From Flavobacteriaceae bacterium (GTDB lineage Bacteria > Bacteroidota > Bacteroidia > Flavobacteriales > Flavobacteriaceae), in the NCBI GenBank assembly GCA_030835825.1, contig JAURRA010000005.1, forward strand, positions 1 to 64,000: a stretch of DNA of 64,000 nt. Direction: 5' to 3'. This document shows positions 2-9,114 of this stretch, piece after piece. Under the pieces are notes generated by a model, which did no database searches, had not been told where the DNA came from, and saw only the letters and a list, made by a program, of their open reading frames with translations. The translations under genes were made by a program, and so were the position numbers. Position 1 is the first letter of the stretch; the number at the start of each line of letters is the position of its first letter.

Positions 2-556
2 ACCGATATTGAAAAAGGGCAGTGGTATTTTAGACGATACATCAAGGAGCTTCCAGAGCCTGGTGAAATAGTGTTTTTCGATAGAAGCTGGTATAACAGA
101 GCTGTGGTAGAGCCGGTAATGGGGTTTTGTGATAAGACACAATACGAACAATTTATGGTTCAGGTCCCTGAATTTGAGCATATGCTTTATGAAGATGGTG
201 TTGACATCATCAAGTTTTGGTTTTCCATTTCGAAGGACAAACAAGCCAAGCGTTTCGATTCTCGTTTGCAAAATCCATTGAAGCAGTGGAAGTTTAGTGA
301 GGTAGATAGAGAAGGTCAAAAGCTGTGGAAACAATATACCTACTATAAGGAGCAAATGCTAGGGAAAACCCACACTACCTTTTGTCCTTGGGTAATTGTC
401 AAATCGAATGCCAAGGAACCTGCCCATCTAGAAAGTATCAGGCATGTATTATCTCGTTTCAATTATGACGGAAAGGGCAGTTCAGGAACCGATATTATGC
501 CAGACCCAAATGTTGTACAACGCTATCATAGAATGGTAAAACAAATTGACAAATGA
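2..556 (+). CDS. ppk2: Polyphosphate kinase 2 family protein (5' end outside window)
   Basis: PPK2 enzymes move phosphate between polyphosphate and nucleotides in the cytoplasm. The open frame runs from base 2 to a TGA at 554, so the N-terminus with the Walker A loop lies outside the window. The Walker B region (DRSWYNRAVVEPV) and the later KFWFSISKDKQAKRF and PLKQWKFSEVD blocks, all typical of PPK2, are present. The stop overlaps the next PPK2 start by four bases (ATGA), so the two paralogues are translationally coupled. The direction of catalysis (AMP, ADP or GDP substrate) cannot be read from this fragment. Confidence 0.93.
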   Translation, partial: TDIEKGQWYFRRYIKELPEPGEIVFFDRSWYNRAVVEPVMGFCDKTQYEQFMVQVPEFEHMLYEDGVDIIKFWFSISKDKQAKRFDSRLQNPLKQWKFSEVDREGQKLWKQYTYYKEQMLGKTHTTFCPWVIVKSNAKEPAHLESIRHVLSRFNYDGKGSSGTDIMPDPNVVQRYHRMVKQIDK

Positions 557-1317
557 TTCACTTATCAGACAAAAATATCAAAGCACTAAATTCAAAAAAG
601 GGAATTAGACTCTTTTTACAGGAGGATATGAGGCCCATCAAAGCCCTTCGGGCGATTCAATATGAATCAAGAATAAAAAAGCTAAAGCAAGAACTGATCA
701 AATTGCAGCATTGGGTGGTCAATGAACGTGAAAAAGTGGTGATTATCTGTGAAGGTCGCGATGCGGCAGGAAAGGGAGGTGCAATCCGTAGGATAACCGA
801 ACATCTCAATCCTCGGGAATTTAGAGTGGTAGCCCTGCCAAAACCCACCATCGAAGAAAAGGGTCAATGGTATTTTCAGCGGTATGTTAACCAATTACCA
901 CGGGAAGGTAAAATTGTACTTTTTGATCGCAGTTGGTATAATCGAGCTATTGTAGAGCCCGTCAATAAGTTTTGCACCACTGAGGAATACCATATATTTC
1001 TACATCAAGTCAACGAATTCGAGCGCATGATTATTGAATCTGGTATTCGATTGATTAAATTCTATTTTTCGATCTCCAAAAATGAGCAAATGAGTCGGTT
1101 TGAAGATATCCAAGGCAGCCCATTGAAAAAATGGAAATTTAGCAAGGTCGATCAAAAGGCCATTGAGCTTTGGGACTCCTATACTTCATATAAAGAGAAA
1201 ATGTTTGAAAAAACAGATACCGCTCTTGCTCCGTGGGTGGTAATTGGTGCTAATCGAAAAATGAAGGCTAGAATAGAGGCTATCAAGCATATTCTGGCCG
1301 TAGTGCCTTACAAGTAA
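553..1317 (+). CDS. ppk2: Polyphosphate kinase 2 family protein
   Basis: This is a complete single-domain PPK2 of 254 aa. Walker A is GRDAAGKGG (residues 68-76) and Walker B is DRSWYN (125-130); both blocks also match the PPK2 fold's lid and substrate-binding segments. It uses polyphosphate to phosphorylate nucleotides, or the reverse. It begins inside the stop codon of the preceding PPK2 gene, so the pair forms an operon of tandem, clearly diverged duplicates. Convergent phosphate-uptake genes follow, which suggests a shared role in phosphate storage. The PPK2 class is not assigned. Confidence 0.95.
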   Translation: MIHLSDKNIKALNSKKGIRLFLQEDMRPIKALRAIQYESRIKKLKQELIKLQHWVVNEREKVVIICEGRDAAGKGGAIRRITEHLNPREFRVVALPKPTIEEKGQWYFQRYVNQLPREGKIVLFDRSWYNRAIVEPVNKFCTTEEYHIFLHQVNEFERMIIESGIRLIKFYFSISKNEQMSRFEDIQGSPLKKWKFSKVDQKAIELWDSYTSYKEKMFEKTDTALAPWVVIGANRKMKARIEAIKHILAVVPYK

Positions 1318-1397: not shown

Positions 1398-3686
1398 CTA
1401 TTTGTCGGATTTCTTTTGATCGTTGGCAATCATAGCTGGCTCAACCGAACTGTCGTGGGCAGCATGATATTCGTCTAGTAAATTCATAATAGAGTTGATC
1501 AAGTCTTTAGTCTCTAACAAGATGCTAAAGTAAAGTGTTGTATTCTTAGGGTTTGAAACCTCAGATCGGGTTCTATTGACTTGGCTTTTTATTTTCTCCT
1601 TAACCAGATCATAGACCTCTTTTTTCTCATTGAGTATTTTCCCTATTTCTTCAAACGAGCCTGACTCAAAAGCATTTTGGGTGTCCAAAAACAAGACTTC
1701 TAATTTGTCATAAATTTCTCTCAGTTCCTTAACTTGATTGAATTTGAGTTTTTTGTGATTGTTGTTCACATGCTTGTAAGATATCTTAGAAATCAGCTCA
1801 AGCGATTGGGTGATGTCTTGAAGATATCCTAATATATTGATATAAAATCCACTTGCCTCAACACTCGATTCGTCTAGATTTTTGATAAAAAAGAAGATGT
1901 TATCTCTCAAATCCTCGACCTCGTCTGTCAACTTAACCACCTGCTTCTTGGCCTTTTTAAGTGCCGAAAGCTTTTGAGTAGCCAATCCTCCAACCGCATT
2001 TTCATAAATTTGATTGGTTCGTTTGACAACATTGGCGATATTTTTTGCACTTTCAATAATAACTCCTTGCACAGAGCTGCTCTCGGCTTTTGTCAATCGA
2101 TCTTCCTCAATGACATTGTTATATTTGACCTTATGAGAGACATAATTGTTGTAAAGTAAAATAGCTGTAATTATCAATAAAATTGGAATAACGATTTCTG
2201 GATTCCAATTGATTAAAAGAACAATGATTCCCGATGCAAAGAAAGCGCCGATTGCAGTTCCAAACCATCCGCCGATAACGTTGAGCACTCCTGCGACTCG
2301 ATACACCGCGCTATCGCTGCCCCAGGCCCGGTCGGCCAAAGATGTTCCCATGGCTACCATAAAAGTAACATAGGTGGTCGATAAAGGTAATTTCATCGAT
2401 GTGGCAATAGCAATCAAGACGCCGGCTACCATCAAGTTGACACAGGCGCGAATCATATCAAATGCAGGTGCTTCGAGGCTCTGATCTTTTGAAATAACAA
2501 CGTCCGATGTTTTAAATCTGATATTTACTTTTTCCTTAAGATAATTTGGAATTAATGGGCTGAAATAGTTCGATAACTTAGTAATCCCTTTTACGATTCC
2601 TATGGATAGAAAATTAGGTTGAAACTTTTCATGTGTTTCTCCCTGTCGTGACAGGCTAATTTCAGTTTCTGCAACGGTTTTTGCCTTTTTTGACAACAGC
2701 AATGTGGCCACCATAATACCGCCTGAGATAAACAAAAGCAAAGGTTCGGCCGGTACTTTAGACTCTAAGACTTCCATTGAAAAGTCAGAGGCCCCAATTC
2801 CAGAAGACATCCAGGCTTCGTATGAGTGGTAAGCTGCCATAGGAACACCAATAAAGTTAACCAAATCGTTTCCCGAAAAGGCGAGTGCCAATCCGAATGT
2901 GCCCACAGCAATGACAAAAAGAAGCACTGTTCTCTTAAAGATTATTTCAAACAAATAAGAAAAAAGGAACCAAAATGCGAAAGCTCCAAAAACAATCATC
3001 TGCTCTTTCCCATCAATAGCCCCTTTCAAATCACTGTAGTAAGGTGTTCCTTTCAAGCCTTTAAGAAAGATGAAATAAGTGATAGCGGTTAAAGCAAAAC
3101 CCCCAAAAGCCGGGCCAAAATATTTAATTGTTTTGGTGGTATTGAAAGAGAATAAAGCTCTTGAGACCCACTGAACGATAGCCCCGACAGAAAATGCAAT
3201 GACTACTGACAGGAGAATACCAAAGATTATTTCCGTTGCTTTTTTAGTATTGATAAAACCCGAAATGTCAGCTAGTGTCAAGGTGTCTGATTGAGAAATT
3301 TTGATCAGAGACATCATCACAGCCGCTCCCAATAGGTTAAAAACAATAGAAACTGTAGTTGAGGTAGGTAAACCTAGGGTATTAAAAAAGTCCAATAATA
3401 AAATGTCTGTGATCATCACAGCCATAAAAATGAGCATAATTTCATCGAACATAAACTGTCCGGGCACAAAAATACCCTTCCGCGCTACTTCCATCATACC
3501 GCTTGAAAATACCGCGCCGATAAAAATTCCTAAGCTCGCTACTATCATTATAGTTCGCAGCGAAATAGCTTTAGAACCAATCGCTGAATTCAAAAAATTA
3601 ACAGCATCGTTGCTTACACCAACTACAATATCTACTACAGCAAGAATTGTAATGGCGATTAGAATAAAGATATAAATATTGTCCAT
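1398..3686 (-). CDS. pit: Inorganic phosphate transporter, PiT family, with PhoU-like C-terminal domain
   Basis: This is a 762-aa inner-membrane low-affinity phosphate permease (PHO4/PiT family). The two signature repeats are visible: GVSNDAVNFLNSAIG near residue 25 and PLSTTYVTFMVAMGTSLADR in the second half, with many hydrophobic helices between. Roughly the last 220 residues are soluble, helical and Lys/Glu-rich like a PhoU/DUF47 domain, which makes the protein much longer than a minimal PiT. That tail probably senses or regulates transport (inference). It lies directly downstream of the phosphate-selective porin gene, 56 bp away, so the two are probably co-transcribed. Confidence 0.92.
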   Translation of the reverse strand: MDNIYIFILIAITILAVVDIVVGVSNDAVNFLNSAIGSKAISLRTIMIVASLGIFIGAVFSSGMMEVARKGIFVPGQFMFDEIMLIFMAVMITDILLLDFFNTLGLPTSTTVSIVFNLLGAAVMMSLIKISQSDTLTLADISGFINTKKATEIIFGILLSVVIAFSVGAIVQWVSRALFSFNTTKTIKYFGPAFGGFALTAITYFIFLKGLKGTPYYSDLKGAIDGKEQMIVFGAFAFWFLFSYLFEIIFKRTVLLFVIAVGTFGLALAFSGNDLVNFIGVPMAAYHSYEAWMSSGIGASDFSMEVLESKVPAEPLLLFISGGIMVATLLLSKKAKTVAETEISLSRQGETHEKFQPNFLSIGIVKGITKLSNYFSPLIPNYLKEKVNIRFKTSDVVISKDQSLEAPAFDMIRACVNLMVAGVLIAIATSMKLPLSTTYVTFMVAMGTSLADRAWGSDSAVYRVAGVLNVIGGWFGTAIGAFFASGIIVLLINWNPEIVIPILLIITAILLYNNYVSHKVKYNNVIEEDRLTKAESSSVQGVIIESAKNIANVVKRTNQIYENAVGGLATQKLSALKKAKKQVVKLTDEVEDLRDNIFFFIKNLDESSVEASGFYINILGYLQDITQSLELISKISYKHVNNNHKKLKFNQVKELREIYDKLEVLFLDTQNAFESGSFEEIGKILNEKKEVYDLVKEKIKSQVNRTRSEVSNPKNTTLYFSILLETKDLINSIMNLLDEYHAAHDSSVEPAMIANDQKKSDK

Positions 3687-3742: not shown

Positions 3743-4927
3743 TTAAAAGTGAATGTCGAATTGTAATCTATAGATGATATGATTATTGTCATCCGCAATA
3801 TCTCTATAACTAATATCTGATTGAACTTTCAGTTTATGGCCTGCAACAAACTTTGAAACACCGAGGGTGTATTCTGTTTCACTGTTGTTTCCAAATATGT
3901 TTTCGTCCAATTTAATGTTAGTGTAACGTCCTGAGACTTCAATGTTGCTTTTAAACAAATATCCCGATTGGATATTTAAGCCTTTGCCAACTTGCACAAT
4001 ATCGCCTGTTAGGGTTCCGTCAGAGTTTTTGGCAAAAGGGTCGTCTGCATTTCTGTCGGCATATTCCGCCATCAAGGAAAAACCCTTATGTTTGTAAATG
4101 GCATCCACAAACAAGGTCGTGATATCTGTTTCATAATGGCCTGTATCATTGGTCATATAGCTCCCTTGATTACTTCTGTTTTTAACAGCATTGTTATTGT
4201 AATCAAATGAGAGTCCGATAGCTAATTTAGGCTTAGGCTCTCTTTTCAAATCAGAGGCACGGTAATCGCCACTGCCAGCAAAAGTACCTAGTGGAAGTAA
4301 TTCTAAACGTCCAGTATATTGATGTCCCCCAATATTTCCTCTGGTAACATTTCTTCCCTCTCCTTGGGCAACAGAAAGAATTTCTCTTATTACGAAGCCA
4401 TTGGAGACTTTAAAATGGTGTCTCAGCTGAATACCAAGATCACGATCAATGTTAAATCGACTGTTCAAGAGCGAGCGGTCGACCTGTTGCATATTTCCAG
4501 AGGAGATTACACGCTCTCTGTTGCCAGGCAATTTAGTTTGACCAAACCAAAGGGAAAAGTCCCCAGAAAAATTCCATTTAATTAAGGCGTCTAATATATA
4601 ATTGGGAGCGTTGTGAGTATAATAAGAAGCTCCAGAAATATCCCTGTTTGACAATCCCAACTCAAGTTTGTATTGCAGTTTCGGAGAATAGGCAAATCCA
4701 TCAAATTTCAAACGGGCTCTTCGCACTAAAAGATTAGATTCTGTCGAAGACTGGTCTTCCCAGTCGGTGCTACTCAAAAATTGCATCCGTGCCCCAATTT
4801 TCATGGTCCAAGTGCTGTCTTGCCCGAACAAATTGAACAGACCTTTCCCAAATTCTGGAACCTGATTTTCTTGAGCATTCAACACACCAACGGATAGAAA
4901 TAATAGAATTAAAAATAAGTTTCTCAA
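3743..4927 (-). CDS. Phosphate-selective porin O/P family protein
   Basis: This is a 394-aa outer-membrane beta-barrel of the OprO/OprP family. An N-terminal signal peptide (MRNLFLILLFLSVGVLNAQ) precedes alternating short beta strands, including RMQFLSSTDWED, RRARLKFDGFAYSPKLQYK and a terminal aromatic strand ending IYRLQFDIHF. It would carry phosphate or other anions across the outer membrane for the neighbouring PiT permease and the Na/Pi cotransporter. The family is broad in Bacteroidota, so phosphate specificity is inferred from context. Confidence 0.88.
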   Translation of the reverse strand: MRNLFLILLFLSVGVLNAQENQVPEFGKGLFNLFGQDSTWTMKIGARMQFLSSTDWEDQSSTESNLLVRRARLKFDGFAYSPKLQYKLELGLSNRDISGASYYTHNAPNYILDALIKWNFSGDFSLWFGQTKLPGNRERVISSGNMQQVDRSLLNSRFNIDRDLGIQLRHHFKVSNGFVIREILSVAQGEGRNVTRGNIGGHQYTGRLELLPLGTFAGSGDYRASDLKREPKPKLAIGLSFDYNNNAVKNRSNQGSYMTNDTGHYETDITTLFVDAIYKHKGFSLMAEYADRNADDPFAKNSDGTLTGDIVQVGKGLNIQSGYLFKSNIEVSGRYTNIKLDENIFGNNSETEYTLGVSKFVAGHKLKVQSDISYRDIADDNNHIIYRLQFDIHF

Positions 4928-4995: not shown

Positions 4996-6762
4996 TTAAT
5001 TTTTGCTGTTGTTGTCCATGATAGCATCCAATTGCCCATAGAGAAGCTCAGCAACTGCAATTAGTTTGCGAATCATATCATGGACGTTGGTATTGTCATT
5101 AAAAAGCGAGGAGGCCATTTCGGCACTGATCTTATTTTTCCTAATGAGATTATCAATAGATTCATTACTGTGCCTGATGTTTTCCTTGGCCTCCATTTTA
5201 AGCACAGCTAATTTCTCGGCATACGCCATGGCCTGCTCTTCCGTTCCAAACAAATAAATCGTTCGTAAAACTTTGGTGACTTTTGCTCTAAAATTATCAT
5301 ACTCTTTAAGCAGATAAGGATTTTCTCCAGACAAGGATCGGCTTACATTTTTATTAATTGCTCGCGCATCGTTGAGAATTTCTACCATCTTGCGGTTGGC
5401 GATTTTAATTTCACTGACTGCACGATTTTGTTTTTTACTGAGATTTAAATCACTTTGAATGGCGGTTGCTTATCTAATTATTTCACCATAAATCAACTTC
5501 ACTTTTTTATAGTAGAGTTCTGCTACGTCCACATTCATATCGTCGGTTGACTTTTTGATAATTTTTTTAATCTTTTGATCCGATTTGATATCGTCTTTAT
5601 GAATATTCAAGGCATGGGACACTATTTCGAAAATGGTGTTATTAAATAAATCCTTTGATTCTAGCAGTAAAGATTAAATGGCAGAGGTTGGAAACTGCAT
5701 GGCAGATGCGTTCAAATATTTGGGTTTATCAATATCGCTGGAGGATTTGTCTTTGATGATTCGAATTAACAACCATTCTAATTTGCCGATAAAAGGGATC
5801 ATAACGACCACGCCTATCACATTGAAAAGGGAATGGAAAATGGCCAACTTGAGGGTGTAATCATCGGAGTCCAAATTCATTGATTCGGCAAGAACATTTA
5901 CCACATTGGCTAAGGGGAAAATCAAAACCAATGCAAGGATTCCAGTCATCAGATTAAAAATAAAATGAGCTCCTGCCAATCGTTTCCCCGCAACGTTTGA
6001 AGCTAGAGCGCCAAAAATAGCCGTAATGGTGGTCCCTACATTGGCGCCTATGGCCAATGTCAGCGCATTTTCATATTCAATTTGCTGTGCCGCCAAGGCC
6101 TTTAAAATCAGGGCTAAAGTGGCACTACTCGACTGAAGAACAGTTGTTATTAATATCCCTAAACCAGCATATATTATGGCTCCCTGAAAACCTGTAACTG
6201 CAAATTCGGTTAAATCAATATAATCCTTAAATACATCGAAACCCTCCTTCATATAGTGAATTCCTAAAAAGAAAAAACCCAGCCCAGCCAACACATTTCC
6301 AATTCCTTTTAATGCGTTTGACTTTTGAAAAGAAAAGATCAAGCCAAAAATCAATACGGGAAGTGCAAGCGATGAGATTTTGATTTTTAATCCAAACGCT
6401 GCGACTAACCAGGCCGTAGCAGTGGTTCCAATGTTTGCTCCGAAAATAAGACCAAGACCCCCCGACAAACTGATTAAACCAGCACTAATAAATGAAATGG
6501 TAATTACTGACACCAGGGAACTCGATTGAATAAAAGCGGTAACAACGGCACCTGTAGCGATACTTTTATACAATCTACTTGTAGCTCTTTTTAAAATGTT
6601 TTGCAACGGCCCTTTGGTAAAGGCCTTGAACCCATCTTCGAGCATGATCATTCCGAAAAGTAGAATAGCAACTCCAGCTAAAATCGTTTTGACATTGGGA
6701 TTGAAAAACAAAACACAGCCTAGTATAGCTAAAAAAGTCAAAAAGAGAATTCGCTTTAACAT
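4996..6762 (-). pseudogene. Na/Pi cotransporter family gene interrupted by two in-frame TAA codons
   Basis: Read from ATG at 6762 this frame gives 588 codons, the normal length of an NptA-type Na/phosphate cotransporter with a C-terminal PhoU-like domain. Residues 1-362 hold the membrane core, with both QSS repeats (TAFIQSSSLVSVITISF and TTVLQSSSATLAL) and GANIGTT/GANVGTT motifs. TAA codons then sit at 5674-5676 (codon 363) and 5470-5472 (codon 431). The frame does not shift, and the intervening and following translation is still PhoU-like and helical, ending at 4996. Each stop is one substitution from a sense codon. The core may still be made as a 362-aa protein; the tail from 5388 (MVEILNDARA) lacks an evident signal for separate translation. 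Recent nonsense decay or base-call error are the alternatives. Confidence 0.85.
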
Positions 6763-8765: not shown

Positions 8766-9114
8766 ATGAATACACACCCCAACAGTTATCCCATAGGTCC
8801 TTACAAAAGAATGGAGGATTTTTCAGATGAGAAACGACTAGGGTAATCAATTTGTCTGGAAATGAAGCTATATCTTGAATCTCCCCGACGCCAACGATAT
8901 GGATCTCAGGGCATCGCTATACATCTTAGATGGTATTCATTATCGGTGGGCAAATCTGTTTCTTTCGGCAAGTGAACACGATTACAAAAAAATGGTTTTC
9001 CATCCCCAGTATCGGTTATAGTTCAGTTTAGAAGAACTGTTAAGCCAATATGCCTGGCATTGTAACCACCACTTAGCGCATATTGAACTAGCCATTAAGA
9101 GGAATTCGAATTAA
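8766..9114 (+). pseudogene. Decayed DinB/YfiT-like (DinB superfamily) gene
   Basis: The ATG at 8766 begins an N-terminus typical of YfiT-like DinB-superfamily proteins (SYPIGPYKRMEDFSDEKRL), but it hits a stop after about 26 codons. In another frame, from about 8890, the C-terminal half follows: DLRASLYILDGIHYRWANLF, then a TAG after FHPQYRL, then FSLEELLSQYAWHCNHHLAH, ending with TAA at 9112-9114. The His-rich metal-binding end is still clear. The middle of the usual domain, including its first metal-ligand helix, is missing. The locus is thus internally deleted, frameshifted and carries nonsense codons. It overlaps the convergent pheS stop by four bases. Confidence 0.75.

Follow-up and report, generated by a model that had tools for sequence, protein, structure and literature searches.

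Two in-frame stop codons in a Na/Pi symporter gene of a Flavobacteriaceae bacterium: possible recent gene loss within a phosphate cluster

Pseudogenes created by nonsense mutation are a known class in bacteria that are streamlined or restricted to a host. The gene described here resembles them in its in-frame stops, its otherwise intact sequence and the likely functional alternative nearby, whereas two stops without missense erosion are unusual for that class. The closest described transporter is the NptA type of S. aureus, in which, as here, an Na_Pi_cotrans core is followed by a PhoU-fold tail, with intact orthologues of about 590 aa (PMC13170248). The same paper reports that S. aureus NptA goes on importing phosphate when the PhoU domain is removed: the shortened protein sustains growth when phosphate is scarce at alkaline pH, a condition that requires NptA, and performs less well when phosphate is in excess. 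It also lists natural NptA types that lack PhoU and names those of B. subtilis and V. cholerae.

In contrast to the S. aureus type, the tail of the gene studied here is removed by two nonsense codons. The predicted 362-aa product would share the bare-core architecture of the natural PhoU-less types, but those evolved as short proteins, while the tail DNA of the present gene persists, at 74–84% identity to that of a same-genus genome, G002. Assembly error is a documented source of false internal stops (PMC11017572). The locus is like such spurious stops in its substitution-type stops, intact frame and draft assembly; it differs in having two of them in one gene and in that the gene is also broken in the assembly of a sister species. 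The Na/Pi-PhoU architecture, its PhoU-less forms and the gene-loss process are all already known. A literature search for the Na/Pi-PhoU architecture as a pseudogene returned nothing relevant, and one on streamlined Flavobacteria returned only an unrelated review.

A Na/Pi symporter frame with two internal TAA codons

The window, i.e., the whole stretch of 64,000 nucleotides that was analysed, comes from a genome designated G000, and three genomes of the same genus (G001, G002 and G003) were used for comparison. From position 6762 to 4996 on the minus strand, the window reads as one 588-codon frame of a Na/Pi cotransporter (NaPi), in which codons 363 and 431 are the only internal stops and the frame's own terminal stop lies at 4996–4998. 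The first TAA (codon 363, 5674–5676, minus strand) is located close to where the PhoU domain begins, in a variable column with 12 residue types among 47 aligned rows, while the second TAA (codon 431, 5470–5472, minus strand) occupies a conserved column with 2 residue types. The alignment with the intact 587-aa copy of G003 runs end to end without an indel at 80% identity, in agreement with the original prediction of two in-frame TAA codons in an otherwise intact frame. The prediction also pointed out that a single base separates each stop from a sense codon, which is correct but holds for any TAA and is uninformative. On the predicted structure of the G003 protein, codon 363 falls 27 residues beyond the last membrane helix (302–335) and near the beginning of the first PhoU helix (358–384). 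The contig end is about 5 kb away from both stops. The viral contigs scanned contained no exact match to 18 bases taken at the first stop.

The stops are not shared by relatives. When 397 genomes of the family were searched, 34, among them G000 and G001, had a NaPi match of at least 59% identity; 31 of the other 32 carry an open frame of 589–626 aa, and in the remaining one a contig end interrupts the gene. Stops at codons 363 and 431 are absent from the intact orthologues. Within the genus, G002 and G003 have intact genes of 587 aa, with 80% identity in the core. The G001 gene is in three frame pieces, and both breaks are inside 8-base homopolymers, a classic site of long-read errors; 133 other 8-base A or T runs lie within open G001 frames of at least 150 aa.

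Seven stop-free PhoU-less homologues of 316–344 aa are also present in the family. With 27–33% identity, they are a distant subgroup and not truncations of this NaPi. An additional short homologue of 330 aa (G311) carries a TAA.

Membrane core, PhoU-fold tail and age of the stops

The first 362 codons (5677–6762, minus strand) encode the membrane core. Both PF02690 (Na_Pi_cotrans) repeats lie within residues 1–362 (5e-48, 163 bits against a cut-off of 29.1), so the core is complete ahead of the first stop, as predicted. The core also exceeds the cut-off of the NCBIfam Na/Pi symporter model NF037997 (170.5 against 50 bits), matches TIGR00704 under its cut-off, and contains two QSSS motifs, at 79 and 210. 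By these matches, the 362-aa product is a predicted Na/Pi symporter.

The tail is divided by the second stop into codons 364–430 (5473–5673, minus strand; 84% identical to G002) and codons 432–588 with the natural terminal stop (4996–5469, minus strand; 74% identical to G002). Neither the tail pieces nor the intact G003 protein matched the Pfam PhoU family (PF01895). The model of the G003 tail had a mean pLDDT of 91.9, and its ten best Foldseek rows were PhoU or PhoU-like chains with probabilities of 0.99–1.00, including 1sum, titled merely hypothetical protein; the best E value was 1.6e-3 (probability 1.00), and none of these ten reached 0.001. Residues 357–581 of the full-length G003 model aligned with P. 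aeruginosa PhoU (4q25_B) over 203 residues, with a Z score of 16.8 and an rmsd of 3.3. The tail is thus a predicted PhoU helical bundle, and its proposed PhoU-like character is borne out by modelled fold, though not by a Pfam name. A PDB profile search with the tail returned no chain at E 1, whereas a search with the whole NaPi alignment matched SLC34A2 chains to the core and, weakly, two designed helical proteins to the tail. No SLC34 chain was among the 50 structural matches listed for the G003 model, which we did not count against that fold.

Sequence constraint was assessed in an alignment in which the 47 other rows were open frames of at least 570 aa together with the G001 pieces; one sequence cut by a contig end (L107) was dropped, and at least four row pairs are identical sequences fetched twice, at zero tree distance. 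As rows were chosen as open frames, they are stop-free by construction, and the unselected evidence is the 397-genome search. Columns invariant in the 47 rows are unchanged in the G000 gene, both in the core (0/90) and in the tail (0/20). When one deviant was allowed, the gene differed at 3/128 core and 0/33 tail columns, numbers that fall inside the spread seen for the other rows. One of the changes is private and radical: at core residue 221, 46 of the 47 other rows agree, and 39 wider homologues carry T, A or S.

The unchanged invariant columns argue that the stops are young. Two random stops predict about 34 missense changes, of which about 6.4 would fall at invariant columns, against 0 observed there (P ~0.002 if mutation is uniform, ~0.03 with a G>T/C>A spectrum). 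This deficit looks odd for neutral decay and equally so for random error, but it is suggestive only, since the gene was picked out by its stops. Branch dN/dS estimates (GY94) were discarded: branches exceeded 1 substitution per codon, foreground omegas on short sister branches were at the bound, and synonymous sites were saturated, which made the test uninformative.

The phosphate cluster and its lesions in related genomes

The NaPi neighbourhood is a phosphate cluster consisting of two polyphosphate kinase 2 (PPK2) genes, a PiT transporter, porin O/P and NaPi. Directly downstream of NaPi is an open phosphate-selective porin O/P gene with a TTG start (3743–4927, minus strand; PF07396), and porin O/P matches adjoin NaPi in G001, G002, G003 and Lutibacter L024. 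It is followed by an intact PiT-family (PHO4) transporter (1398–3686, minus strand; PF01384), so the cell does also have PiT, as had been noted. PiT is without a stop in G000, G001 and G003, and in G002 it is split across two contigs. The second PPK2 copy, PPK2b (553–1317, plus strand), is intact in the window and broken in G001. The first, PPK2a, is represented by its 3' part (2..556, plus strand), cut by the contig end; its 5' part is on contig C14, with a 141-base overlap.

Different members of the cluster are broken in different species: NaPi in G000, NaPi and PPK2b in G001, and PPK2a in G003. The G001 PPK2b (L140 14846–15620; G001:C1 266,845–267,619) has two frame changes and a TGA; of the frame changes, one lies close to a run of six A and one has no homopolymer. 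The G003 PPK2a (L135 1968–2816; G003:C21 21,968–22,816) has an in-frame TAG in an otherwise intact frame. A possible fifth lesion, judged from sequence, is an in-frame TGA in the signal-peptide region of the G003 porin O/P (L135 near 7177; G003:C21 27,177), where G001 and G002 read through and no obvious later start is seen; as it lies at an alignment edge, it was excluded from the four cluster lesions.

Lesions affect 4/15 copies of the five cluster genes in three genomes, compared with 12/735 background ORFs (Fisher's test, p = 1.6e-4). The units were matched ORFs, namely 347 of G000 found with G001 queries and 342 of G001 plus 66 of G003 found with G000 queries, less the 6, 7 and 7 that matched the cluster; the 12 background lesions were sorted by hand and include doubtful cases. 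Without the copy first noticed, the enrichment was 3/14 versus 12/735 (p = 2.1e-3). Counting all flagged background ORFs (20/735) gave p = 8.7e-4 for 4/15 and 7.4e-3 for 3/14; several of these resemble start-codon or antisense-ORF effects, and keeping them is conservative. With clean stops and frame switches only in the background (9), p was 6.7e-5, and with the G003 porin TGA included (5/15 versus 20/735) it was 6.5e-5. The test is post hoc, the cluster having been picked afterwards, and the G001 NaPi breaks may themselves be errors.

A separate PhoU was not found in any of the four genus genomes (PF01895 at E 0.001), nor was PstB above its cut-off, lower matches resembling other ABC ATPases; completeness is below 90% for two of these genomes. 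Relatives with the same stops and a separately encoded PhoU, which the original prediction had named as the finding that would overturn it, were likewise not found among the family and genus genomes searched.

Internal stops elsewhere in the assembly and competing explanations

The background of internal stops was estimated from a sample of 720,632 of the 1,624,941 bases of G000 (44%), in which 347 ORFs of G001 had a match (119,964 codons). Well-flanked internal stops were found twice in NaPi and once each in atpD, a DinB_2 remnant and a 110-aa ORF; the sample also contained five stops at alignment edges and one 118-aa ORF that switches frame. Internal stops like those of NaPi are rare in this genome.

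The atpD gene (F1 ATP synthase beta; L158 117–1619, G000:C14) carries an in-frame TAA at 615–617, in the nucleotide-binding domain just past the P-loop and about 600 bases from the contig end, at what we take to be a catalytic position. It is the sole copy in the assembly (the next match is 26% identical) and is otherwise 97% identical to the G003 gene; it shows 7 private differences, the stop among them, where the sisters show 4 and 8. Because a living cell without atpD is unlikely, this TAA is probably either false, as a consensus error near the contig end, or a minority variant, and the NaPi stops could be so too. Contigs C14 and C26 overlap at their ends by exactly 141 bases, which we take to be the residue of a de Bruijn assembler with k = 141; such assemblers normally require several reads per k-mer, which speaks against lone read errors. 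The DinB_2 remnant (8766–9111, plus strand), about 2 kb from NaPi, is of another kind: about 185 bases are missing inside it, the frame is shifted and further stops follow, while the G003 counterpart is an intact 177-aa protein (PF12867). This deletion pseudogene indicates that real decay occurs in G000. The flanking ORFs are, we assume from their appearance, a GNAT acetyltransferase and pheS.

Our preferred reading, which we hold with a probability of about 0.52, is the recent loss of a NaPi gene redundant with PiT, through two nonsense substitutions, in a small-genome Flavobacteriaceae lineage. The symporter gene, of the NptA type with PhoU at its C terminus, would have gained the two substitutions, and ribosomes would terminate at codon 363. 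Phosphate uptake would be covered by PiT, which is open in all three genomes that have it whole, so that NaPi and one or other PPK2 gene would become dispensable and each species would lose them on its own. For a time, a 362-aa transporter lacking PhoU may be produced, but it would not be what keeps the locus. The points we count for decay are the 31 of 32 frames kept in the family, the intact genes of G002 and G003, the breaks in G001, the cluster lesions, the open PiT, the nearby DinB_2 pseudogene and the radical change at residue 221. Counted against it are the lack of missense erosion beside the stops, which is odd, the TAA in the sole atpD, a hint that not every stop here is real, the position of the G001 NaPi breaks in 8-base homopolymers, and the post hoc nature of the enrichment test with its hand-sorted background.

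The main rival, second to decay and in itself unlikely, is that the gene is intact in the living cell: the assembly is of metagenome type, and one TAA codon or both would have entered it by error or from a minority strain. This would fit the absence of erosion, the stop near a contig end in a presumably essential single-copy atpD, and the exact contig overlap, presumably left where a de Bruijn graph branched. Internal stops made by assembly are indeed documented (PMC11017572). However, apart from NaPi only 3 of the 347 matched ORFs have a well-flanked stop, one of them being the deletion pseudogene, and it would be remarkable for two such errors to hit a single gene by chance. Random errors also predict missense changes at invariant columns, where none is seen; the NaPi stops are 5 kb away from the contig end, and the gene is broken in G001 as well, though perhaps also by error. 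The original argument that two independent substitutions speak against chance error is nevertheless weakened by atpD, as false or minority stops may occur in this assembly.

Less probable again is that the first stop removed PhoU and the resulting working, deregulated transporter was selected, the second stop falling later in an unexpressed tail. The position of codon 363 on the model, past the last membrane helix, the unchanged invariant core columns and the existence of PhoU-less homologues in the family are all compatible with it. By analogy with S. aureus NptA, which functions without its PhoU domain, the 362-aa protein could possibly work in a deregulated form, and the earlier suggestion that a truncated transporter may be made is in line with phosphate import by PhoU-less NptA in that species and with the natural PhoU-less types (PMC13170248). 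Yet tail and core are equally unchanged, which leaves no visible constraint on the core alone; within the core itself, residue 221 is altered radically, the short stop-free forms are distant, and dN/dS gave no information. The sequences at hand give no sign of selection for keeping the 362-aa form. Early loss of phosphate regulation, as first proposed, is therefore one option, but residue 221 and the cluster lesions of the sister species fit whole-gene loss at least as well, and the earlier interpretation is partly supported overall. Least probable by far is read-through or recoding, in which TAA is decoded as an amino acid and full-length NaPi is made. The frame is intact on either side of both stops and atpD is likewise interrupted in frame by TAA, but clean TAA interruptions affect just 2 genes among 347 matched ORFs, and no single recoded residue fits well because the columns at 363 and 431 differ in kind (12 versus 2 residue types).

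If the stops are real, as in the preferred reading of gene loss, they record a recent loss in a phosphate-uptake cluster of which sister species lost different members, and they offer a natural test of a PhoU-less Na/Pi symporter working with neither Pst nor a separate PhoU detected. If they are artefacts, the NaPi and atpD stops warn against reading single substitutions here as biology. A bolder and rather improbable view is that a small-genome genus with no PhoU or PstB detected repeatedly and independently breaks one phosphate/polyphosphate cluster while keeping PiT, and that here a single domain-boundary stop yields a bare constitutive Na/Pi symporter, a snapshot of how PhoU-less NptA originates.

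The PiT protein of the window has a 240-aa C-terminal extension with a weak PhoU match (PF01895, E 0.0017, below the cut-off), and PiT may possibly have its own fused PhoU-like regulator.
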